From Cyclobacteriaceae bacterium (lineage in GTDB: Bacteria > Bacteroidota > Bacteroidia > Cytophagales > Cyclobacteriaceae): a stretch of DNA of 64,000 nt. Made by a program: the position numbers and the translations under genes. The stretch lies in the NCBI GenBank assembly GCA_958296015.1, contig CATQIH010000049.1, positions 1 through 64,000 of the forward strand, written 5' to 3'. Below, one piece after another: positions 39,732 to 50,819 of this stretch. A model generated the notes under the pieces. The model ran no database searches, was not told the origin of the DNA, and saw only the letters and a program-made list of their open reading frames with translations. How positions within the stretch are numbered: the first letter of the stretch is position 1; each line of letters opens with the position of its first letter.

Positions 39732-40058
39732 CTACAGGCAGTGATTAGTCTGCCCAGTGGCGTGTTTAAGCCTTATGCAAGGATGAGTATTGCCATCTTG
39801 CTTTTTACTAGAACCAACGTCTGTTGATTCTGGCAAGGTAGGGTTCTATGGTATGGAAAAAGAGGGCTATACGCTGGGTGATAAACGTACATACAAACCG
39901 GAACAAAGCAGTAGTATCTTACAATGCTGGAAAATCCGGCTGCTCAGGCTGATCGCAAACGCACCGATCAGTCTTTCTTTGTGCCGGTACAGAAAGTCAT
40001 TGACAACGACTGGAATCTGTCCTTTAACCGCTGCTGCGAGCGTATATGGAATGTGTAA
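39705..40058 (+). pseudogene. hsdM: HsdM (type I DNA methylase) C-terminal remnant
   Basis: Three pieces in alternating frames match consecutive parts of the C-terminal region of type I restriction-modification methylases. Frame A (from about 39711, across TAG 39729-39731, to TGA 39825-39827) reads IEKH[20 protein letters not shown] and AILLFTRTN. Frame B (39826 to about 39923) reads KVGFYGMEKEGYTLGDKRT. Frame C (39924-40058) reads RKRTDQSFFVPVQ and DNDWNLSFNR. These correspond to the family patterns [32 protein letters not shown] and D.NLSINRYKE. The catalytic methylase motifs (NPPF and the SAM site) are absent, so it is a dead fragment. No hsdS or hsdR sequence was recognised nearby. Confidence 0.82.
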
Positions 40059-40072
40059 ACAACTGTATGATA

Positions 40073-40084
40073 GCGCAATTGCGC
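40073..40084. promoter_or_regulatory. 12-bp palindrome upstream of the Xre/RES operon
   Basis: GCGCAATTGCGC is a perfect palindrome about 70 bp upstream of the antitoxin start at 40153. Xre-type antitoxins normally repress their own operon, so this is a candidate operator; a TATATTTA box lies nearer the start (about 40139). Confidence 0.35.
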
Positions 40085-40152
40085 CAAGCCTGTGTCACAA
40101 ATGTAGCTTAAAGATTTGGATGCTCTGTCAACTGTCGTTATATTTATGTCAA

Positions 40153-40638
40153 ATGTCTGATACTGCTATGCAAAATACAAACACTTCGCCCCAAACAAAA
40201 GGTCTTACCCAGGATACGCTGCTCTCTTACTTTGGAGGAGCTTCTACTCTGGGTATTAAACCGATAGACAATGCCCTGGATTTGATCTATCTCACCAGGA
40301 CTGGTATAGCTAAACTGGCATTGGCTGCGCTGGCTGAGAAGACTTCTCTTTCCATCAAAGAGATTGCACAGGCTGTTCATATTTCAGAAAGGACGCTACA
40401 GAGGTATGATGACCACCGCAAGCTGGACAAAGCCACTACCGAGAAAGCCATTGAACTGGCACAACTCTACCAGTATGGCATAGAAGTATTTGGCAGCCTG
40501 GACAAGTTCAACGGTTGGGTGCGGCATCCCAGCGTATACTTTAATGGTCAGCTTCCGGTAGAACTCCTGGATACCACCACGGGTATGTTGCTGATACGCG
40601 ACGAACTTACCCGTATTGCGCACGGCGTATTTGCCTGA
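40153..40638 (+). CDS. Xre/MbcA/ParS-type antitoxin of a RES toxin pair
   Basis: Antitoxin of 161 residues from ATG 40153 (MSDTAMQNTNT); an in-frame ATG at 40168 is an alternative start. The frame is open far upstream, but that part belongs to the HsdM remnant. The N-terminal half holds an Xre-like helix-turn-helix (SIKEIAQAVHISERTLQRYD). The C-terminal half is the MbcA/ParS toxin-binding domain (EVFGSLDKFNGWVRHPSVYFNG, where the pattern G....WL..P...LGG.P is slightly changed, then LLDTTTGMLLIRDEL). It ends 1 bp before the RES toxin ATG at 40640, the usual antitoxin-first order. It should neutralise the toxin and repress the operon. Confidence 0.88.
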   Translation: MSDTAMQNTNTSPQTKGLTQDTLLSYFGGASTLGIKPIDNALDLIYLTRTGIAKLALAALAEKTSLSIKEIAQAVHISERTLQRYDDHRKLDKATTEKAIELAQLYQYGIEVFGSLDKFNGWVRHPSVYFNGQLPVELLDTTTGMLLIRDELTRIAHGVFA

Positions 40639-40639
40639 C

Positions 40640-41095
40640 ATGATGGAATTATACAGGGTTGGCAAGAAAAAGTATATTGAAGATATGTCAGGTACAGGAG
40701 CCAGGCTAACAGGCAATCGTTGGAACAGTAAGGGAACGGCTATGCTTTATACCAGTGGCACGCTTTCGCTATGCCTGCTGGAATGCCTGGTGCACTTCCC
40801 TCCTGCTTACATTCCTGATGATTATGCCTTTGTCAAACTCTTTTGTCCTGACGACAGCCTGACAGAAATCATGACGGATACGTTGCCCGGGCATTGGAAA
40901 GTGCAGGCAGATGATGAGCGTACTAAGCAGATGGGAGATGATTTTGTCAGAGCACAAAAGCATTTGTGCGTAAAGGTGCCATCGGCCATTGTGGCTACGG
41001 AATATAACTATCTACTGAACCCACATCATCCTCGCTTTTCGGAAGTGAAGCTACTTGAAGTGAAAGATTTTATATTTGATAACAGGCTGTTTTAA
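40640..41095 (+). CDS. RES-domain toxin (NAD+-degrading family)
   Basis: RES-family toxin of 151 residues. Characterised members deplete NAD+ by phosphorolysis or hydrolysis and arrest growth. I start at ATG 40640 (MMELYRVGKKKY); 40643 is equally possible. Expected features are visible: Arg in ELYRV, GARLTGNRWNSKGTAMLYTSG with the conserved Arg and the G.RWN..G...Y signature, LCLLECLVH with the conserved Glu, and VPSAIV...YNYLLNPHHP with the conserved Ser and Asn/His tail. No damage is seen, so the pair is probably functional. It lies in a region full of decayed mobile and defence genes, where an addictive module could stabilise the segment. Confidence 0.9.
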   Translation: MMELYRVGKKKYIEDMSGTGARLTGNRWNSKGTAMLYTSGTLSLCLLECLVHFPPAYIPDDYAFVKLFCPDDSLTEIMTDTLPGHWKVQADDERTKQMGDDFVRAQKHLCVKVPSAIVATEYNYLLNPHHPRFSEVKLLEVKDFIFDNRLF

Positions 41096-41304: not shown

Positions 41305-42906
41305 TCATATTTCATCGGATGAAGGTACTAATTTAGCTTTAAGATCTGGGTTTTTCATGTCTTTATCCAAAGGAAACATAGGTCTTTTGATGCGGCTATA
41401 CTCAAGACTTTCCAAGTCCTGATCCACACCACCGGGAGTAAGTGCCATGATCCAGTCTGCCCTCATGTCATAAAGCTCTGGGACTAAATAACCTATCTTT
41501 ACCACAACTATGTCGGTAGTACGAGGATTAAGCCCTAGACTATTGAATTGAGATTCATAATGATAAGCATTACGCCCTTTAGTAACAATGATATGTAAGC
41601 TTCCTACCTTCACTACCACTGCTCTATCTTCTTCCATAGCTTCTACTGTTGCTGTAAGCCGTACAGGAGGAGCAAAACGTGCATCAACGGTTGCCCCTAC
41701 ATAGGCATCTACTTTTCCACCCACTCCTGCTGCTATCGCCTGTTTCACTAATTCCGGTCCTGGAATAGAGGCATAAATAAGAGAAGGACCATTTTCAGAT
41801 TTAAATTCAGGGCAAGAAAGTATTTCCCGTAAAGTCCAGGTAACGTCACCGGCTCCTCCGGCAGTAGGATTATCGCCTGAATCACTGATAAAGAAAGGGT
41901 GCTTATTGCTTGCGATTGCCTTATCCAGGCTGCCATGTAAAGAATCTGTGGGAGCTACAAACTCAAATTCAGCTCTTACATTCCAAAAGCTGTTTGCCAG
42001 TTGCTCTGCTGTATTGGTTACTTTTGCTTTATCATCTCCGGTTACCATCACCACCGCATGGTTGCGTGGTTCATCGGCCCAGGCATAACCAATCCATATG
42101 GCCGCATCAATGACTCCTTCTTGTTTTGTAACAGGATCTACTTTAGCATATAAGCTCTTTCCTGGTTCCACCCTGGTACTTGTTTTTTCGCCTGGTAGTA
42201 ATATAGGCACTGGAATCCAGGCTTTGTAGGCAGGTTTTCCTTTGCCTGTTTCAATCCTTTGCAACAGATTGTCTACGGCCCGCTGCTTGGTTTGCATACG
42301 ATCTTCGTGAGGAGCCATGCGGAAACAGGTGATCAAATCGGTATTTTGTGCCAGGCGCCATGAAACATTGCCATGCAAATCCATAGAGGTTGAAATAATG
42401 GTTTTCTTACCTATTACTTCCCGAATTCTAACGATAAAGTCACCCTCAGGATCATCAAGACCTACCACACTCATAGCCCCATGAATATCAAAATAAAGGC
42501 CATCGTAGGGCAGATTTTTTTTGAGCAAATCAAGGGTTTGTTTGACCAAAGATTCGTATGCCTCACAGGTGACAGCACCTCCAGGTGAAGCCCCACCTAC
42601 CAAAGTAGGAAACCAATTTGCCCGGCTCCGATCCAATGAATCTTGAGACAAAAACGGATAAGAGGTGAAAACCTCATCGCCCTGTCTGGCGTGAAAAGCT
42701 TCTTCATGCGTAAGTGCTGGAGAAAATGTACTTGATTCTGTGGATAGTCCGGCAATGGCAATACGAGGAAGCTCTTTTGGCTGCGGATTATTTTCCAACT
42801 CCTTCATTGGCTGACTATTGATCCGGATGTGTTTTTCTGAAAGGAGAAAGAAAGTTGAGAATGTGATCAAGTGAAAAGAGAGCGTCAGGAAAAGCGTGCG
42901 TTTCAT
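41305..42906 (-). CDS. M81-family metallopeptidase (MlrC-like), exported
   Basis: Predicted zinc metallopeptidase of family M81; the founder MlrC completes microcystin breakdown, but most relatives act on unknown small peptides or amides. The 533-residue protein begins MKRTLFLTLSFHLITFSTFFLL, a signal peptide or anchor. The N-terminal M81 domain shows RIAIAGLSTESSTFSP, GLYFDIHGAMSVVGLDDPEGD (Asp/His), STSMDLHGN (Asp-His) and CFRMAPHEDRMQT. The C-terminal domain has SDSGDNPTAGGAGD. Family length and motifs are complete. It is monocistronic, divergent from the DUF2975 operon, and shares a 345-399 bp upstream region with it. Confidence 0.9.
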   Translation of the reverse strand: MKRTLFLTLSFHLITFSTFFLLSEKHIRINSQPMKELENNPQPKELPRIAIAGLSTESSTFSPALTHEEAFHARQGDEVFTSYPFLSQDSLDRSRANWFPTLVGGASPGGAVTCEAYESLVKQTLDLLKKNLPYDGLYFDIHGAMSVVGLDDPEGDFIVRIREVIGKKTIISTSMDLHGNVSWRLAQNTDLITCFRMAPHEDRMQTKQRAVDNLLQRIETGKGKPAYKAWIPVPILLPGEKTSTRVEPGKSLYAKVDPVTKQEGVIDAAIWIGYAWADEPRNHAVVMVTGDDKAKVTNTAEQLANSFWNVRAEFEFVAPTDSLHGSLDKAIASNKHPFFISDSGDNPTAGGAGDVTWTLREILSCPEFKSENGPSLIYASIPGPELVKQAIAAGVGGKVDAYVGATVDARFAPPVRLTATVEAMEEDRAVVVKVGSLHIIVTKGRNAYHYESQFNSLGLNPRTTDIVVVKIGYLVPELYDMRADWIMALTPGGVDQDLESLEYSRIKRPMFPLDKDMKNPDLKAKLVPSSDEI

Positions 42907-43305
42907 AAGTAGGTTTGTGATTTAGCTTGGTAGAACATACTGCAAGTGTAAATTATTAAAAAGAATCTAATCTAAACCGTATCATAAAGAATATTCTTTA
43001 AGATATTCTGCTCTTAGATAAGATGTGTAGAGCAAGATGATGAACTTTACACCGGCAGGGTCATGGCTCACTTTTAAAAGCCTCTATACTATATCGTTTA
43101 ATATAACTTTAGTTACATATATTTTGTATTGGCTCAAATACCAAAGGAATAGAACTAGCTGAGTAGCTTTTCGTATCTGGGTTAAAACGCCATTATCAAA
43201 GAATTCATCTAAATTCTCAATCAGAATAAAAAAATATTATGCAATAAATTATTGTTTTACAATAATTTATTGCTCTTTTGCAGAAACAAATCAAATTATT
43301 TAAAA
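42907..43305. promoter_or_regulatory. Divergent intergenic region with two long palindromes
   Basis: No gene seen. It holds a perfect 16-bp palindrome (TAAAGAATATTCTTTA, 42985-43000), 79 bp upstream of the M81 start, and the 14-bp inverted repeat at 43241-43273 described separately. Both are on the control side of the flanking genes. Confidence 0.4.
43241..43273. promoter_or_regulatory. Perfect 14-bp inverted repeat, candidate XRE operator
   Basis: GCAATAAATTATTG (43241-43254) and CAATAATTTATTGC (43260-43273) are perfect complements around a 5-nt centre (TTTTA). The element ends 32 bp before the ATG of the DUF2975 gene, where an operator overlapping the promoter is expected. The adjacent XRE regulator is the obvious candidate to bind it. 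Confidence 0.6.
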
Positions 43306-43821
43306 ATGAATAATGTCAAAGTAGTGGCTAAAGTCTTATTATATACCACCAGGTTTTTTGCTGCCTTTTATGGATTACTGACTCTCTATTCAGCGATTTG
43401 TTTGATGACTGGTTGGTTTTTGGCTTTTAAGGAAAACGGTCAATGTTTTTCTGTTCTGTTACCGCTCACACAAGAATCCATGCTAACCGGTGCCAATAAT
43501 TTGCCCTACATCTTTTTTGATTTTTTACTTCCTTTGACGCTTTATAGCATTTTCTTTCTGCTGGTGAGTAACGTTTTTAAGGTTTTTACCCATACTAAGT
43601 TGTTTACCCAAAATGGTGTTAGGCATTTACAATGGTTTTACCTGAGCAACCTAATTATCCCATCAGTCGCTGTCTTGCTTGCCGCTATGTTTGGCATGGC
43701 GGATATAGAAGTAATGGTGCTGGTCATGTTACATTTTGTCCTTGGCGTATTTGTCTATTTTTTAGCGGCTATATTCAAACAAGGGCTGTATTTACAGAAC
43801 GAACAAGATTTAATGATATAG
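43306..43821 (+). CDS. DUF2975-type four-helix membrane protein
   Basis: Integral membrane protein of 171 residues from ATG 43306 (MNNVKVVAKVLLY), the first start after the long inverted repeat. Four hydrophobic segments are readable: AAFYGLLTLYSAICLM, YIFFDFLLPLTLYSIFFLLV, LIIPSVAVLLAAMFGM and VLVMLHFVLGVFVYFLAAIF. Between helices two and three is KVFTHTKLFTQNGVRHLQWF, the F..N....L.. pattern of DUF2975 proteins. A YozG-like XRE gene starts 3 bp downstream. In such pairs the membrane protein is thought to modulate the cytoplasmic regulator; the signal is unknown. Confidence 0.82.
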   Translation: MNNVKVVAKVLLYTTRFFAAFYGLLTLYSAICLMTGWFLAFKENGQCFSVLLPLTQESMLTGANNLPYIFFDFLLPLTLYSIFFLLVSNVFKVFTHTKLFTQNGVRHLQWFYLSNLIIPSVAVLLAAMFGMADIEVMVLVMLHFVLGVFVYFLAAIFKQGLYLQNEQDLMI

Positions 43822-43824
43822 CAT

Positions 43825-44037
43825 ATGCCAATTGTTGTCAATGTAGATGTGATGCTTGCTAAACGTAAAATGCCAAGCAAAGAATTGGCAGAAAAATTAG
43901 GAATCACCGCAGCTAATTTATCTATTTTAAAAACAGGAAAAGCCAAAGGTATCCGTTTTGATACTCTGGAAGGTATTTGTAAAATTCTTGATTGTCAACC
44001 CGGTGACGTTTTGGAGTACGTAGCATCAACGCGATAA
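43825..44037 (+). CDS. Small XRE-family regulator (YozG-like) paired with DUF2975
   Basis: Cytoplasmic helix-turn-helix protein of 70 residues, little more than the DNA-binding domain: VDVMLAKRKMPSKELAEKLGITAANLSILKTGKAKGIRFDTLEGICKILDCQPGDVLEY (key parts KELAEKLGIT and LSILKTGKAKGIRF). It starts 3 bp after the DUF2975 stop, and 78 bp before the ABC ATPase gene. It likely binds the inverted repeat at 43241-43273 and controls this operon. Confidence 0.9.
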   Translation: MPIVVNVDVMLAKRKMPSKELAEKLGITAANLSILKTGKAKGIRFDTLEGICKILDCQPGDVLEYVASTR

Positions 44038-44115
44038 TATATCCATATGTAGTAGTGGCATCTTCAAAGTCTCTGAACAGAGATACAGGATGTATATTGC
44101 TTAAATACTAAAAAG

Positions 44116-44988
44116 ATGGTAAATACATTATGCATTAAAAACTTAACGAAAACCTACCAAAATGGTGTAAAAGCAATTAACAACATTTCACTGGAGGTGA
44201 GCAATGGCATGTTTGGTTTACTCGGACCCAATGGTTCCGGGAAATCTTCGCTTATGAAAACCATTGTTGGGCTACAAAAGCCAGATAGCGGTCAAATCAT
44301 TTTCAATAACAAGGATGTCATCAAAGAACCGGACATCATCAAAAGGCAGCTCGGGTTTTTACCGCAGGACTTTGGCGTTTACCCCAACGTTTCTGCCTAT
44401 ACTTTGCTGGAACATTTGGCCATGCTCAAAGGAATTGTCAATTACCGTGAAAGAAGAGCGCAACTGTTGACATTGCTGGATAAAGTCAATCTATACGCAC
44501 ACCGAAAAAAAGAGGTTCATACCTTTTCGGGGGGTATGCGACAACGGTTTGGTATTGCACAAGCGTTGCTCGGAAATCCGAAAATTGTGCTTGTCGATGA
44601 ACCTACTGCCGGACTTGACCCCGAAGAACGAAACCGGTTCAACCGCTTACTGAGTGAAATAAGCGAAGAAATGATCATAATTCTATCCACCCATCTGGTG
44701 GAAGATGTCAATAATCTTTGCTCCAAAATGGCAATCATCTAGGCAGGAACTGTGCTGGCGTGTGGACGCCCAAAAGATTTTATGCAAGCACTAAGGGGCA
44801 AAATTTGGCAAAAGCAGTTAGCTACATCCGAATCGGAAAACGATCACCGCGGATATCAGGTACTATCCTCTCAATTTGCGGAGGGGAAAAGGCGCATTCG
44901 TATTCTTTCAGCAATACCGATAGCAGGTTCAAAAGCAGTAAAACCAACCTTGGAAGATGTGTACTTTACCACATTGAAATTCAGATGA
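44116..44988 (+). pseudogene. ABC transporter ATPase interrupted by an in-frame TAG
   Basis: ATP-binding subunit of an ABC exporter. Walker A is LLGPNGSGKSSL (about residues 36-47), Q-loop GFLPQDFGVYP, signature FSGGMRQR, Walker B KIVLVDEPTAGLDPEER, H-loop STHLVED. After KMAII a TAG occurs at 44740-44742, and the same frame continues with AGTVLACGRPKDFM to TGA 44986-44988, completing a normal 291-codon ATPase. CAG (Gln) to TAG is the simplest lesion. All catalytic motifs precede the stop, so a shorter product might keep some activity. The last codons overlap the permease start (ATGA), indicating coupled translation of ATPase and membrane subunit. Confidence 0.85.
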
Positions 44989-47900
44989 GTGCTATATTTA
45001 TCTTCGATGTCACCATATATTCCCGACGGTGGGGCTTTTATTGGCTGTTAGTGCTGCTCTCAATTTTGGGATTTGGTGCGGGAAGCGTGTCTAATTTTTC
45101 CCTAGGAGATGATATTTTAAAAAATTCGCCGTACCAACTTAGCTACGTAACTGGTCTTTTAAGCCTGACCACCATTTTTTTCAGTACCGCAATGGCATCT
45201 CAATTGATATTCAGAGAAGCAGATGCCCGATTCGATTCCTTGATTTTTAGCCTTCCTATCAAAAGAACTCACTTTGTTTTTGGTAGGTTTTTGGCCTTGA
45301 TTACCCTCACTATTCTATACCTTCTCTTATTTACGATAAACTTTTTCATAGCACAGTCATTCAAGTATACGTCAGAAAAACTAATTGACTTTGATGCTTC
45401 ATCCTATGTTTTTGCCTTCCTGATGTTTGGGTTTGTCAACACGCTATTTACTACTTCGGTGGTAAGTTTTATTGGCTGGTTTTCGAAGAACAAGCTTTTG
45501 GTGTATGTGGGCGGTCTGTTGCTTTATATTGCTTATATGGCCGCCCTGCTTTATTCCGGTTCACCGTTGATGGCCCAAAGTATGCCACAGTCAGCACATG
45601 CAAGAACCATTGCTGCTTTTGCAGATCCTTTTGGCTTGTCGGCCTTCTTTTACCAAACATCAGGTTGGTCAGTGCTGCAAAGAAACACACAATTGATCTC
45701 ACTGAATGGCGTATTTTTAATCAATCGTGTCATAGTTTTATTGATTTCAACGGGCCTATTAATTGTAAGTGCTACTCGATCTTCATTCCGCTTAAATTCC
45801 AACACCGGGAATGCCAGAAATACCCACGGTTTAGATAAAATTACTCCAATTGGTGCTTATAGGCCGGTGAAAACAACCTACGGTTTTAAGGCGCATTGGC
45901 TCGCTTTTTTTTCATTGGTGAAAATTGATTTGACGTATACGTTTAAAAGTATCGCCTTTGTAATGACGGCCCTGGGGATGCTGTTCTATGTGGGTATGGA
46001 AATGTATGCTGCCATTGAGAAAGGTAGCAGGATTCCCCAGCAATATGCCAGCTCAGGGTTGATGGTACAGACGGTCATTCAAAGTTTTCATCCCCTCTGT
46101 TTGATCGCTGTGCTGTATTATGTTCAAGAAATTTTTTGGCGAAGTAAAAACACAAATTTTTATTTGATTGAACATTCGACCATCCATATCAAGGCAGGAT
46201 TCTACGCAAAATGGGCCTCCTTGAGCCTGATTATTTTGCTGTTCAGTGGCTTCATGATTTTGGAAGGAATCGTTTTTCAACTGATATTTAAGTATCCAAC
46301 CATTGAATGGCTGGTATATGCCAGCGTCTTTTTGTTCAATGCTATGCCGCTGATCGTGCTTAGTGGCGCGTTGCTGCTGATTCAAAAAGTAGTGAACCAA
46401 AGGGCAAGTGGATTGGCGGCTACCGCTTTATTTGCCCTACTGCTGGCCACTTCATTGGGTAAAACAGTAGTTTCCTTCCCCTTGCTGAAATTCTTCCAGC
46501 CGTTGAGTAACGATTATAGCGATATGAACGGTTTTGGCATCTATCAGAATGCTTTTGTCTGGCGATTGATATTTGGAATGACCGTGGTCATCATCCTGAT
46601 GATCATTGTTGCTGTTTCTAAGAAAAATTTAAAGAAATGGAAGCCGACTTCTGTATTCGTTTTATTATGGATAATAGCTATATACTCTGGAGAAAAATCA
46701 ATGAACGGCTACACCGTCAAAGACAAGGCAACAACGTTGCTAGCACAGGCCAGATACGAACAACAGTATAGAAAATTCCAGAATTTTCTGCAACCAACTG
46801 TCACCGACGTGCAAACTACCATTGATCTGTACCCTGACAAAAATGCTTATCATATTACCGGAACCTATGCTCTAGAGAACAAAACCCATCAACCGATCCA
46901 TCAAATATTGGTCAATTTTGTCGATGATTTCACCATCCATCAAGCTGTGCTGATTAGTGGAAATGAAACGAAATCTATCAAAAAACAATACGAGGTCATC
47001 TCGCTAAATCAACCCCTATTACCCACCCATAAAGCACACTTCAGCTTTGATATGTCTTATGACTGGAAAGCCGTGAACGGACACGCGTCTTTCAATGCGA
47101 TGGTAGAAAATGGCTCTTTTATGCGTATCAGTTGTTACTATCCTACATTTGGCTACTTAGCCGATAATGAGATACAAGGAGAAACCGTAAGGCAGCAGTA
47201 TCACTTGGGCATCGCCACATCCATCACAGCATTCGATGCTCCCAGAAGCAAAAATGATGATTTCATCAGTTTGGATATGATTGTTTCTACCAGTGGCCAA
47301 CAAACCGCTATCGGAATTGGAGAATTAATACGTCAGTGGCCATCAGACAACAGAAATTATTTTCACTATAAAACAACAACTTCTGTTCCCTTTCGCTTTG
47401 CCATTTCATCGGCAAACTACGCCATCAGAAAAGAAGCTTATCAGGGAAAAAGCTTTGAAATATACTATCATCCGGCTCATTACGAAAATGTGGATTATTT
47501 GCTGGAAAATGCAAAACGTACCATAGACTATTGCGAAGCAAATTTTGGTGCTTATCCTTTCAAGACCATTCGTTTTGCCGAAGTATCGGCCTTTACCAAA
47601 GGTTTTGCGGCCACTGCCTATCCGGAAACCATCTTTATGACTGAAAACAGAACGTTTCATGCCAATATCAAAGCCGATAAACAGCAGGATGTGATCAATG
47701 AACTGGCAGGACACGAGCTATCTCATGCATGGTGGGGAAACAGCCAAATCTCGCCCGATGACCGTGCCGGAGCCGCCCTGATGACCGAGACGCTAGCCAT
47801 GTATACCGAAATGATGCTGATCAAAAAGATGTATGGAAAACAAAAGCTTATCGAGCATGTAAAAACGTACCTGGAGATGTATCAGAATGAGCGAGGATTT

Positions 47901-48185
47901 ACCCAGGAACAACCCCTGTATCGTCTGCTGCCTGACAATACGCTATTGAGTTATTCCAAAGGAGCAGTAGTGATGTATTTGTTGAGTGAAATGATCGGCG
48001 AAGACCAAGTCAATCGTGCACTAAGAAATTTTCTGCAAAAATATAAGTACCCTCATCCAAAACCAACGTCAACCGATCTCTTACAGGAGATTTACCGGGT
48101 AAGCAATGAAGAAGCTTATCCTGCAATCAATGAATTGTTTAAAGAAGTAAAAGAAATAAAAGAAACTGATTTGTACGATAAATAA
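44985..48185 (+). CDS. ABC permease fused to an M1-family aminopeptidase domain
   Basis: Fusion protein of 1066 residues from ATG 44985 (MSAIFIFDVTIYSRRW), which overlaps the ATPase stop. The frame is open upstream but that part lies in the ATPase gene. The first half is an ABC-2-type permease with about twelve hydrophobic segments (for example WLLVLLSILGFG, FVFGRFLALITLTILYLLLF, FALLLATSLG). The second half is an extracytoplasmic gluzincin domain related to M1 aminopeptidases, with HELSHAWWGN at residues 910-919 and LMTETLAMYTE supplying the third zinc ligand (Glu935). The spacing HExxH-X20-E is two longer than classic M1, as in other members of this fusion class. Its substrate is unknown; coupling export to peptide trimming is a reasonable inference. 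Confidence 0.85.
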   Translation: MSAIFIFDVTIYSRRWGFYWLLVLLSILGFGAGSVSNFSLGDDILKNSPYQLSYVTGLLSLTTIFFSTAMASQLIFREADARFDSLIFSLPIKRTHFVFGRFLALITLTILYLLLFTINFFIAQSFKYTSEKLIDFDASSYVFAFLMFGFVNTLFTTSVVSFIGWFSKNKLLVYVGGLLLYIAYMAALLYSGSPLMAQSMPQSAHARTIAAFADPFGLSAFFYQTSGWSVLQRNTQLISLNGVFLINRVIVLLISTGLLIVSATRSSFRLNSNTGNARNTHGLDKITPIGAYRPVKTTYGFKAHWLAFFSLVKIDLTYTFKSIAFVMTALGMLFYVGMEMYAAIEKGSRIPQQYASSGLMVQTVIQSFHPLCLIAVLYYVQEIFWRSKNTNFYLIEHSTIHIKAGFYAKWASLSLIILLFSGFMILEGIVFQLIFKYPTIEWLVYASVFLFNAMPLIVLSGALLLIQKVVNQRASGLAATALFALLLATSLGKTVVSFPLLKFFQPLSNDYSDMNGFGIYQNAFVWRLIFGMTVVIILMIIVAVSKKNLKKWKPTSVFVLLWIIAIYSGEKSMNGYTVKDKATTLLAQARYEQQYRKFQNFLQPTVTDVQTTIDLYPDKNAYHITGTYALENKTHQPIHQILVNFVDDFTIHQAVLISGNETKSIKKQYEVISLNQPLLPTHKAHFSFDMSYDWKAVNGHASFNAMVENGSFMRISCYYPTFGYLADNEIQGETVRQQYHLGIATSITAFDAPRSKNDDFISLDMIVSTSGQQTAIGIGELIRQWPSDNRNYFHYKTTTSVPFRFAISSANYAIRKEAYQGKSFEIYYHPAHYENVDYLLENAKRTIDYCEANFGAYPFKTIRFAEVSAFTKGFAATAYPETIFMTENRTFHANIKADKQQDVINELAGHELSHAWWGNSQISPDDRAGAALMTETLAMYTEMMLIKKMYGKQKLIEHVKTYLEMYQNERGFTQEQPLYRLLPDNTLLSYSKGAVVMYLLSEMIGEDQVNRALRNFLQKYKYPHPKPTSTDLLQEIYRVSNEEAYPAINELFKEVKEIKETDLYDK

Positions 48186-48231: not shown

Positions 48232-49673
48232 TCACTGTTCAAAATCCAAATTGCTTGGAACCTTAGGTATACCCTGAGGCATTTTGATAGAAGTTGTAGG
48301 AATATTAGTATTCACCACGTCAAAATTTACATCATCAATCCAAACAGCACCTGTACCACTTAACAATACACCATAGGCAATCGCTATGCTTTCTTGGCTT
48401 ACGTCTAATACAATTTCATACTGCTGCCAATCTGTAGTTCCTTCGATAGGACGATCTTGCATATTATCAAAAGCCAGCTTTTTGTCACCAGCTCCATCTA
48501 CTCTAAACCATAATCCACACCATCTCGTCACACCTTCTGTTTTAATTTTTGCACTTAGTTTTACGCGTTTTCCTTTGTATTCGTCGGGGGAAACCATCTG
48601 CATGACGGTGCCGAAACCTTCTATTTGTTTTTCTGACGATTTAAGGAAAGCTACCATTCCTCCATTCATTTTAGAGGTTCCAGTGTCGTAAGAAGCAGGA
48701 TGGCTGCCAGTTTTATACCAGCCTTTTGGTACGTTAGATGATGATGTTTGTGCCTGAGCGGAAACATGCTGTAAAAATATATTTGCGAGAGGAAAAGCCA
48801 TCCCTGCCAAAAAAACAACAATAATAACAATGCCCAGTTTGTGTCCAAACCAGATCAACGAGGATTTTGTGCGATGGATCATGATGATTCTGTTTTTGAT
48901 GAGAGAATAATTAAAGCCGCTTCCTAAGAGCGGGTTGGTCAAAGCATTTGTATAGTCAAGAAGTTTTTGACAGTAGTCAGCAAAATGTCGTCTGTGCCTG
49001 ACAATGCAATTATCAGCCGTATATTCGTGATTGGCTTTCAAGGCGATACGATACAGCCACAAAAACGGGTTGAACCAATAAAATATGAGCACCAATTCGA
49101 TAAACATCACGTCGAGCGTATGATGTTGATTGATATGCGCTTTTTCATGCGCAACAATATCATCATCTATACAACCTTGGGTATAATCATGCTTGTTGAC
49201 GAAAATATACCTGCCAAAGCTGAATGGATAAATGGCTGTCTTTACTAACACCCGCTTGACCTGTTGATAATCGCTAACCTCATTATCGTTAATAAGACTT
49301 TTGATAAGTAATACATTGCTTGCATAGCGATAAGCCATCAGTACCAAACCCATTAGATATATTCCTAGAAAGATAAATTCTATTGCGACATTGGGCGATT
49401 TATTAGAATCAACGCTATTTATTATTATTGAACTAGCATACTGCATCATAGAGCTTCCTTGTTCAATAAAACCCGTTGGTATTTGTGTTGCTATTCTGTG
49501 AGAACTCAAACTTGCAACGGCAGGTAAGATTACGGGTGAAAGCAGTGAGATTGTGACTGATGCTAACACAAGATTCTATTGAATATTAAGTATTTATCTC
49601 TACTGAACAGAAAAAGAAAGCACACACATAAGAGCGCAAGACTTGCCGTAGATACTATGATATAGACAATCAT
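48232..49673 (-). pseudogene. M56 (BlaR1-type) membrane sensor peptidase with ligand-like C-domain, 5' frameshift
   Basis: Membrane metallopeptidase of the BlaR1/MecR1 M56 family, which cleaves or releases a BlaI-type repressor. The N-terminus starts at ATG 49673 (MIVYIIVSTASLALLC), overlapping the BlaI stop, but one base is missing near 49572 so that the rest (LASVTISLLSPVILP onward) lies in another frame. The downstream frame has AHEKAHINQHH with the HExxH zinc motif (about 50 residues past a helix), FYWFNPFLWLYR and the NHEYTADNCI segment. After the last helix, a periplasmic domain of about 150 residues (GLWFRVDG, FDNMQDRPIEGTTDWQQYEIVLDV, of which GTTDWQQY is typical) resembles a jelly-roll module found in some Bacteroidota regulators. 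It converges with the ABC/M1 operon. Confidence 0.78.
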
Positions 49674-49877: not shown

Positions 49878-49912
49878 AACCCCCAAATATGATAAACCAA
49901 GGGTTCTTTTTT
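49878..49912. terminator. Weak hairpin after the lipoprotein gene
   Basis: AACCC (49878-49882) pairs with GGGTT (49901-49905), and a T-run (49907-49912) lies on the plus strand. It is close to the 3' end of the minus-strand lipoprotein gene. The stem is short, so confidence is low. Confidence 0.25.
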
Positions 49913-50342
49913 ACTTCTGCAAAACATAAATAGGAACGCCAGGAATTGATGCTTTAAGTGTTTTCGCTGTCTTACCGTTAAATGCTACACTTTCGTATTT
50001 ACTATTCTTATTTACATCTACGTATAGAGTGTCTATATCTCCATGCGCTTCTAAGTAAAAATCTTTTGTCCCTTCCATACTTAAAAAAGCAATATTTCCG
50101 CCGTCAAGGAAGGACGAGTCTCCATAGGGATTTATTATTATATCTAAGGATTTTTTGCTATTGCCGTTGAAGTAATATAGCTCCACTGAATCACCGTATT
50201 GCTTTAGATAATTAGCGTTTTCTACTGTGAGCACTGTCGCTAAAAAAGGGTCAGGCCCTGGCTCACAACAAACAGGTTTTTCACAACCAGATACACCTAA
50301 TATACTCACCGAGATTGAAAAAAAGAGCGTTAAGCGTTTCAT
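49911..50342 (-). CDS. Small lipoprotein of unknown function
   Basis: Predicted lipoprotein of 143 residues: signal MKRLTLFFSISVSILGVSGC with the lipid-accepting Cys at residue 20, followed by CCEPGPDP. The mature part is beta-rich (TVLTVENANYLKQYGDSVEL, DTLYVDVNKNSKYESV). No family recognised. It stands alone, separated from the BlaI remnant by a weak hairpin. Confidence 0.7.
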   Translation of the reverse strand: MKRLTLFFSISVSILGVSGCEKPVCCEPGPDPFLATVLTVENANYLKQYGDSVELYYFNGNSKKSLDIIINPYGDSSFLDGGNIAFLSMEGTKDFYLEAHGDIDTLYVDVNKNSKYESVAFNGKTAKTLKASIPGVPIYVLQK

Positions 50343-50819
50343 AATAAAAATTTATCGTACTACAATTATTTTTTCCCTTAATCTTCCTCCCTTTGCTCTG
50401 ATTTTTTCGCGCAGTTTCTACATCGTAGACACCAAGACTAAAGGAAGCATCGGTTAAACTCGCTATTTTTTCAGCTTAACTTATAATAAATGGTAACCTA
50501 AAAATATGCTTGATAAAAATTATAAGTTAAAGATTGAAAGGTAACTACTTAGTAAATGACAATGAAATTTTAATGTAAACCTACAGTTTACCTTGAGTTA
50601 TTTTCCGTACAAATATACGTTTTTGATAGAATTGCTTTTTTCCGCAGACAGTTGCTTTTACGTTTACATTAGAAGTATTAGCTGTACTCTCAGCATTACC
50701 TTGCTTTTCGCAGCAACATCGGTAGAGACTAAATTAAGTGAAGTAGCCTGCTGCTGATTGCCTGTTGTTTTCTGAACTTTAGTATCTTTACACTAACGAA
50801 AAGTTTTAATATCACAAAG
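50343..50819. other. 477-bp intergenic region with inverted repeats
   Basis: No gene recognised. A perfect 12-bp inverted repeat TTAACTTATAAT (50476-50487) / ATTATAAGTTAA (50519-50530) has a 31-bp spacer, and GTAAAC (50575-50580) pairs with GTTTAC (50586-50591). A Bacteroidota-type promoter candidate for the small ORF and topB consists of TTG at 50758-50760 and TATCTTTA at 50783-50790 with 22 bp between. Confidence 0.45.

Follow-up and report, generated by a model that had tools for sequence, protein, structure and literature searches.

Two-part switches made of a membrane protein and a DNA-binding regulator have been described before. In Bacillus subtilis, SdpR is an autorepressor that is sequestered at the membrane by the polytopic immunity protein SdpI, both being encoded in one operon (PMC1626106, in the part of the article consulted). 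The LytTR Regulatory Systems (LRS; HdrRM, BrsRM) combine a membrane inhibitor with a regulator and, in the consulted part of their account, are credited with repeats at the operon promoter, a wide spread and positive feedback (PMC6193735). A YoaS-like membrane protein and an Xre regulator, presumably members of the same two families as those studied here, were recorded as a conserved pair with 32 occurrences in Table 2 of Makarova et al. 2009; the portion of that article at hand gives the pair no operator, protein tail, mechanism or exporter-linked form (PMC2701414).

Here we analyse a pair of this kind, a DUF2975 membrane protein gene followed by an XRE-family regulator gene, at the head of a four-gene operon in a stretch of 64,000 nucleotides from a Cyclobacteriaceae bacterium (assembly GCA_958296015.1, contig CATQIH010000049.1, positions 1 to 64,000 of the forward strand; this whole stretch is the window). 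The last two genes encode an ABC exporter whose permease is fused to an M1 peptidase. We propose, with a probability of roughly 0.6, that the first two genes form a sensory switch controlling this exporter, in which the XRE protein is an autorepressor that DUF2975 releases. DUF2975 is a domain of unknown function present in several phyla, and the pair would gain a function if its operator and tail work as proposed below.

The likeness to SdpR/SdpI, as far as the available portion of that report goes, lies in the joining of an autorepressor and a polytopic membrane protein in one operon, and capture of the regulator at the membrane is proposed here by analogy. The families differ: SdpR is an ArsR-type protein, whereas the regulator in the window is an XRE protein of the HTH_26 type and its partner belongs to DUF2975, and no SdpI or ArsR-type family appeared among the Pfam matches of the operon's proteins at E 0.1. 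With the LRS, to judge from the accessible text, the window pair shares a membrane protein with a DNA-binding partner, repeats at the operon promoter and a wide spread; the LRS, however, use a LytTR regulator and direct repeats just upstream of the -35 element (PMC6193735, same portion), whereas the window has an XRE protein and its repeat, lying over the -33 place, is inverted. The Pfam results for the operon contained no LytTR match, the regulator being HTH_26. Literature searched by family names gave no published operator, tail or function for the DUF2975/XRE pair, several candidate papers being left unread, and no published ABC-M1 fusion, broader results having been seen in part.

The operon and its upstream repeat

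The sequence-only reading had described a membrane modulator, an XRE regulator, an ABC ATPase and a permease/M1 fusion in this order, and profile searches bear out both the order and the common direction, all four genes lying on the plus strand. DUF2975 (43306-43821, 171 amino acids, ending in TAG) scores 30.2 bits with PF11188 against a gathering cut-off of 27. Three nucleotides past its stop begins the XRE gene (43825-44037, 70 amino acids; PF13443, 82.1 bits against 22), whose product we take to be YozG-like, just as we assume the YoaS-like/Xre pair to be yoaS-yozG of B. subtilis. The ABC ATPase runs for 208 amino acids to an in-frame TAG (44116-44742; PF00005, 108.7 bits against 25 for this part), and the rest of its frame, 81 codons and its own TGA (44743-44988), still matches the ABC profile at 2e-18. 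The fourth gene (44985-48185) encodes 1066 amino acids, an ABC-2-type double permease with 12 transmembrane segments and a probable 13th, fused to an M1 domain at residues ~604-1066 (PF01433, 59.4 bits against 27.7). Its open reading frame, as listed from 44718, starts too early; the likely start is 44985, where ATGA would overlap the ABC frame's own stop.

Upstream of these genes lies a 33-bp inverted repeat, GCAATAAATTATTGT-TTT-ACAATAATTTATTGC (43241-43273, assigned to neither strand), with 15-nt arms that are 100% complementary around a 3-nt centre. Between its end and the DUF2975 ATG at 43306 lie 32 nt, and arm complementarity and spacing both agree with the perfect repeat first noticed there. 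The window holds no other perfect repeat with 15-nt arms and a loop of up to 8 nt, and the two-arm pattern at up to three mismatches occurs at a single place in the 5.9-Mb assembly. Nested in the repeat is the core operator TTATTG-TTTTA-CAATAA (43249-43265, likewise strandless), an exact instance of TWATYG-N5-CRATWA, a dyad enriched before DUF2975/XRE pairs relative to dinucleotide shuffles; four half-sites are present in all, as CAATAA-A-TTATTG and CAATAA-T-TTATTG can also be read within it. An adjacent DUF2975/XRE pair with this dyad upstream is what we take to define the proposed group, and in the window the site is exact and the genes are 3 nt apart.

Relatives with the same four genes carry the repeat at almost the same distance upstream of DUF2975. 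All 33 four-gene loci, the window included, have TWATYG-N5-CRATWA at no more than one mismatch, and 27 have it exactly (shuffles expect 1.5 and 0.08, respectively); the locus L004, a cut stretch, was omitted from this count, and its full stretch, L080, has an exact site. Because its place, spacing and symmetry are conserved together with the regulator pair, the repeat behaves as an operator linked to that pair, as the sequence-only reading had supposed.

The gene order itself is also conserved. That reading had staked its proposal on the pair being kept with the ABC and M1 genes, a check that did not overturn it: when named genomes were searched with the M1 fusion, the order DUF2975-XRE-ABC-M1 was found in 32 of 42 loci. 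Seven others have the M1 and ABC genes without the pair, and three (L069, L073, L074) start too near the M1 gene to be judged. The search was seeded with peptides of the window's proteins and favours close kin, 20 of the 32 being Flavobacterium. Among 29 loci from further relatives (L004-L032), read in the same way, only L004 has the pair. Overall, 45 of 98 genomes searched, our own included, gave an ABC-M1 match; the one same-genus genome searched gave none at E 1e-20. In the M1 match of the same-family relative G024 an in-frame TAA probably marks the gene's end, the frame being 1059 codons long.

A tree of the M1 proteins, built by a quick method with SH-aLRT support, comprised 41 rows: besides the window, 25 loci drawn from the 42 named ones and 15 others. 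The pair-bearing rows all sit in one group of 20 with a support of 100, in which only L041 lacks the pair, and the window's sisters are two Pedobacter. Presence of the pair changes twice on the tree against 13.8 times in shuffles. One gain and one loss would explain this pattern, on a tree that cannot tell gain from loss.

By eye, the ABC-M1 genes of several more distant relatives (L063, L070, L081, L083, L084, L086, L087) stand divergent from a histidine kinase gene, mostly with a LytTR-like regulator. Pfam supports a kinase and LytTR in L063, LytTR in L070 and a kinase in L081. These Bacteroidota fusions have the same ABC ATPase and permease/M1 architecture as the window operon but a divergent kinase and LytTR regulator where the window has DUF2975/XRE. 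A single exporter family thus appears beside two different signalling systems.

In the four-gene loci the operator also has a fixed relation to a promoter. The -7 consensus of Bacteroidota is TAnnTTTG, and this box follows the operator's TTG by 17-19 nt in 31 of the 33 loci, by exactly 18 nt in 28 of them (0.5 expected). The TTG, at 43252-43254 on the plus strand of the window, lies within the left half-site and, given this spacing, is probably the -33 element, which the operator thus overlaps. Cover of the -33 place is the position usual for repressors. At a Priestia locus (L174) the site, by our own reading, similarly overlaps a promoter-like TTGTTA-N17-TATAGT.

The candidate operator in other pairs and other phyla

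We then looked beyond the exporter-linked loci. DUF2975 occurs in 63 of 247 Bacteroidota genomes. From 83 DUF2975 loci (L002, L091-L172) we kept 62 pair operons, after removing duplicates and loci in which the membrane gene is not immediately followed by an XRE gene; in some of those kept the upstream start is wrong, and one region (G331) was counted twice, as two first-form misses. The operator is exact in 43 and has one mismatch in 8, giving 51 of 62 (expected 0.08 exact and 2.0 within one mismatch, from shuffles that ignore kinship). Where the stretch read shows no ABC-like frame, the pairs have it as well, exactly in 34 of 49 and within one mismatch in 40 (expected 0.08 and 1.5). Exact sites are spread over 27 of 38 genera and 11 of 14 families. 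The operator is thus tied to the regulator pair but is not private to the operon in which it was first seen: it accompanies DUF2975/XRE with or without an exporter. The original guess of an operator appears correct, and it extends far beyond one operon.

These sets differ in how far they count as tests. The motif was first seen in the four-gene loci and in L091-L120, which are therefore not independent, and two genomes are common to the four-gene and pair sets (L043/L167, L064/L168). Loci L121-L172 were fetched after a first form of the motif, TWATTG-N5-CAATWA, had been fixed, and this form is exact in 25 of the 43 kept and within one mismatch in 31 (expected 0.04 and 1.0); two of the 43 (L121, L123) overlap earlier stretches.

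Relatives of the window's XRE protein were found in 208 plasmid records, the best being 75% identical (Paraclostridium, Bacillota), and in 19 phage-collection records. From 60 listed rows of the 208 we picked 25 plasmid loci, our own choice rather than a random draw, that span Bacillota, Pseudomonadota, Actinomycetota and Bacteroidota. In every one a frame for a putative membrane partner lies just before the XRE gene (19 annotated DUF2975, 5 hypothetical, 1 newly found in L178), and the XRE protein has 13 invariant columns across 25 sequences from several phyla. The operator is exact in 10 of the 25 and within one mismatch in 13 (expected 0.03 and 0.56), and six loci carry two core sites ATYG-N5-CRAT (0.0 expected). 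Three of four Streptomyces loci have TATCG-N5-CGATA in upstream DNA of 65-68% G+C, the fourth having none, and Mitsuaria has the core with one mismatch in G+C-rich upstream DNA. The form with Y and R was fixed after L173-L184 had been seen; in the later L185-L197 it is exact in 6 of 13 and within one mismatch in 7 (expected 0.01 and 0.3), the first form in 2 and 5. Upstream of DUF2975 in L190, a Klebsiella oxytoca plasmid, the half-sites stand everted, as CGATAA...TTATCG. MacB or ABC exporter genes adjoin the pair in three plasmid loci, of Enterococcus raffinosus (on the other strand), Cedecea and Serratia marcescens, neighbours that fit export control.

Within single genomes the motif is not abundant. 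A looser core pattern at up to two mismatches hits 12 places in our assembly against 16 for a reversed control; the exact short core hits 5 against 4 there and, summed over nine genomes, 52 against 23. A gene of the same XRE family as the window's was present at 9 of 18 loci read around exact short-core sites. We read these counts as pointing to a local switch rather than a large regulon. The genome of the window has a second DUF2975/XRE pair (L002, G000:C51:22558-22926) with a one-mismatch operator 40 nt before its start; the 3.4 kb read there contains neither an ABC nor an M1 match.

A proposed membrane-to-DNA switch

An AlphaFold2 model of DUF2975 (mean pLDDT 88.7, 21 sequences) shows a helix, three strands (residues 39-63) and three helices, and model and hydropathy together predict four transmembrane helices. 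Loop charges suggest that both ends lie inside and the strands outside. No solved relative emerged, either as a PDB sequence match at E 5 or as a Foldseek match at E 0.001. A weak likeness to TARP and designed claudins (a transmembrane helix, strands and three transmembrane helices; Z 5.0-7.2) was rejected as lying within the level of helical bundles, several of the matches being partial.

The C-terminal tail of the protein, EQDLMI in the window (43801-43818, plus strand), is conserved over 88 membrane proteins encoded beside an XRE gene, one of which (L136) is a wrongly picked frame. The majority form is E-[NQ]-[DE]-L-T-[IV], with E at -6 and I or V at -1 in 83 proteins each, L at -3 in 70 and T at -2 in 59. 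Position -2 is never T in the 32 named exporter-linked proteins, which have F (23), Y (7) or I (2); the window has M. Such a difference might insulate coexisting pairs from one another. The tail is predicted to lie inside, where the XRE protein is, and its coding sequence immediately precedes the XRE gene; we take it as a candidate docking site for that protein. An alternative is that it serves as a degradation signal.

The permease has 12 transmembrane segments by hydropathy, and its match to the ABC-2 family PF12730 reaches 24.4 bits against a gathering cut-off of 27. In our reading a weaker 13th segment follows the lysine-rich KKNLKKWK, where the model also has a helix; if it is counted, loop charges place the M1 domain probably outside. 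In the model of the fusion (mean pLDDT 82.2, 27 sequences) residues 604-1066 match the M1 aminopeptidase 1z1w (Z 29.4, root-mean-square deviation 3.2 over 397 residues). The zinc ligands H910, H914 and E935, in the site HELSH-X20-E (47712-47789, plus strand), are invariant in 27 sequences, and HEXXH with the third ligand is kept in 43 of 43, spaced by X20 in 34 and by X19 in 9; the usual M1 spacing is HEXXH-X18-E. GxMEN, the N-terminus-binding signature of M1 aminopeptidases, is absent from all 43, the window included. Thus the window protein has the fold and HEXXH/Glu zinc ligands of aminopeptidase N, ERAP1/2 and Tricorn F3 but differs in its X20 spacing, its lack of GxMEN and its fusion to a permease. 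With its ligands kept and GxMEN missing, the domain probably works as a zinc peptidase, less probably as a classical aminopeptidase. The on-the-spot peptide trimming once suggested for this protein is accordingly a possibility.

Together these features suggest the following switch. The XRE protein would bind the dyad TTATTG-N5-CAATAA, presumably as a dimer, and, with the dyad covering the -33 element, would repress its own operon. DUF2975 would sit in the membrane with its small beta element outside and its conserved tail inside. A signal from outside the cytoplasm, most probably a peptide acting on the membrane or envelope, would make the tail capture the XRE protein, as SdpI captures SdpR; the promoter would then open and the level of the ABC-2 exporter would rise. 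If, as predicted, the M1 peptidase of the permease faces outward from the inner membrane, a peptide could be expelled and cut in one place. Peptide sensing or self-protection is suggested by analogy. Gene order, operator conservation, overlap with the promoter-like boxes, tail conservation, zinc ligands and clustering on the M1 tree are the sequence evidence behind this proposal; repression, contact between tail and XRE protein, membrane sides, signal and substrate we infer.

Several observations weigh against the proposed switch. No ABC-like frame was present in the stretch for 49 of the 62 Bacteroidota pairs, and the main job of DUF2975/XRE may be another than exporter control. The operator lies beyond one mismatch in 11 of these 62, and TAnnTTTG follows it in just 20 of the 51 operator-bearing loci (0.8 expected). 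The operator rule is not universal, for 12 of the 25 plasmid loci have no operator within one mismatch, including those of Paraclostridium, Lactococcus lactis, Methylosinus and Roseburia and the two of Klebsiella. In E. raffinosus, by our own reading, the dyad precedes a -35-like box, where an activator could also bind. The full tail motif is found in just 40 of the 88 proteins. To this list belong the interrupted ABC gene and the off-consensus -7 box of the window copy, described below.

A broader claim would be that DUF2975/XRE pairs constitute an unrecognised class of membrane-to-DNA switch in at least four phyla, with an ancient operator TTATYG-N5-CRATAA over the -35/-33 element, an acidic C-terminal docking peptide, and exporters that plug in; we regard this as an even bet. 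If operator and tail work as we propose, they would supply a sequence rule to predict the pair's targets in other genomes, and the ABC-M1 exporter would become a regulated system with a screenable inducer.

Competing readings and neighbouring genes

The strongest competing reading concerns this copy only: the window operon would be a decaying remnant, with an ABC pseudogene and a failing promoter. The sequence-only reading, whose ABC family assignment holds, overlooked the TAG at 44740-44742, which interrupts the frame and leaves 208 of 290 codons. The 41 aligned ABC homologues are full-length, 286-298 amino acids, and none has a stop at this position, where the residue varies among relatives. 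Moreover, the -7 place (43273-43280, plus strand) reads CTCTTTTG instead of TAnnTTTG, the window and L040 being the two exceptions among the 33 four-gene loci, and a same-family relative (G024, locus L080) reads TACATTTG there. With the ABC gene cut by a stop and the -7 box off consensus, this copy may be in decay, have weak expression or have been lost recently; the absence of an ABC-M1 match from the single same-genus genome searched also favours such a remnant. Against it, the remaining three frames run uninterrupted and the M1 domain has its zinc ligands; the truncated ATPase appears to retain its nucleotide-binding motifs, since by eye we place Walker A, signature, Walker B and H-loop all before the stop; and the stop itself may be a single-base error of the draft assembly. 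We give the remnant reading somewhat less than an even chance, and it is compatible with the switch model for the family.

The second alternative reverses the sign of control. The XRE protein could be an activator that DUF2975 holds inactive, with LRS-like positive autoregulation. The LRS offer a precedent with the same two-part make-up and operon-promoter repeats (PMC6193735, in the portion seen), and the E. raffinosus dyad lies where an activator might bind. Yet the dyad covers the -33 place in 31 of 33 four-gene loci, and it is an inverted repeat, whereas the LRS sites are, in that same portion, direct repeats upstream of -35. An activator is therefore unlikely in our judgement, if far from negligible.

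Much less probable is that the pair is a toxin-antitoxin module. Its compactness and autoregulation-like operator would suit one, as would the occurrence of XRE relatives in 208 plasmid and 19 phage-collection records. However, in one clade the pair is tied to an exporter, and Makarova et al. 2009, in the portion consulted, left the pair out of their toxin-antitoxin systems because type II systems with a membrane component were not known at that time (PMC2701414). PADLOC gave no match for DUF2975 or M1, a weak one for XRE (1e-4) and generic-looking ones for the ATPase (best mad3, 1.5e-29). An anti-phage system was rejected on these weak and generic-looking PADLOC matches.

Least probable of all, and only narrowly behind the toxin-antitoxin module, is that the repeat acts in the 5' leader as an RNA hairpin, either an attenuator or a terminator, a reading that the predicted fold would allow (-15.5 kcal/mol, z -4.14, with none of 200 shuffles as stable) but that is opposed by the lack of an Rfam match at gathering scores, by the persistence of the core in G+C-rich DNA (3 of 4 Streptomyces, and Mitsuaria with one mismatch), and by the -7-like box at or past the repeat's far edge in the four-gene relatives, from which transcription would start downstream and so leave the repeat outside the RNA.

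Other genes flank the operon. Convergent with the M1 gene is a BlaR1-type M56 peptidase gene with a C-terminal extension (48232-49569, minus strand; PF05569); no other minus-strand open reading frame of at least 70 amino acids is listed between it and 49911. The element ATTTATCGTACTACAATNATT at 50350-50370, just upstream of the minus-strand frame 49911-50342, recurs nearly identically at G000:C39:108428-108448 and is perhaps a different operator. On the other side, divergent from the operon, lies an M81/MlrC-type metallopeptidase gene (41305-42906, minus strand; PF07364, PF07171). Beyond it, at 39790-41095, lie the genes of an Xre/MbcA/ParS-type antitoxin (PF09722, PF20432) and, after it, of a RES-domain protein (PF08808), which probably form a RES-Xre toxin-antitoxin pair.

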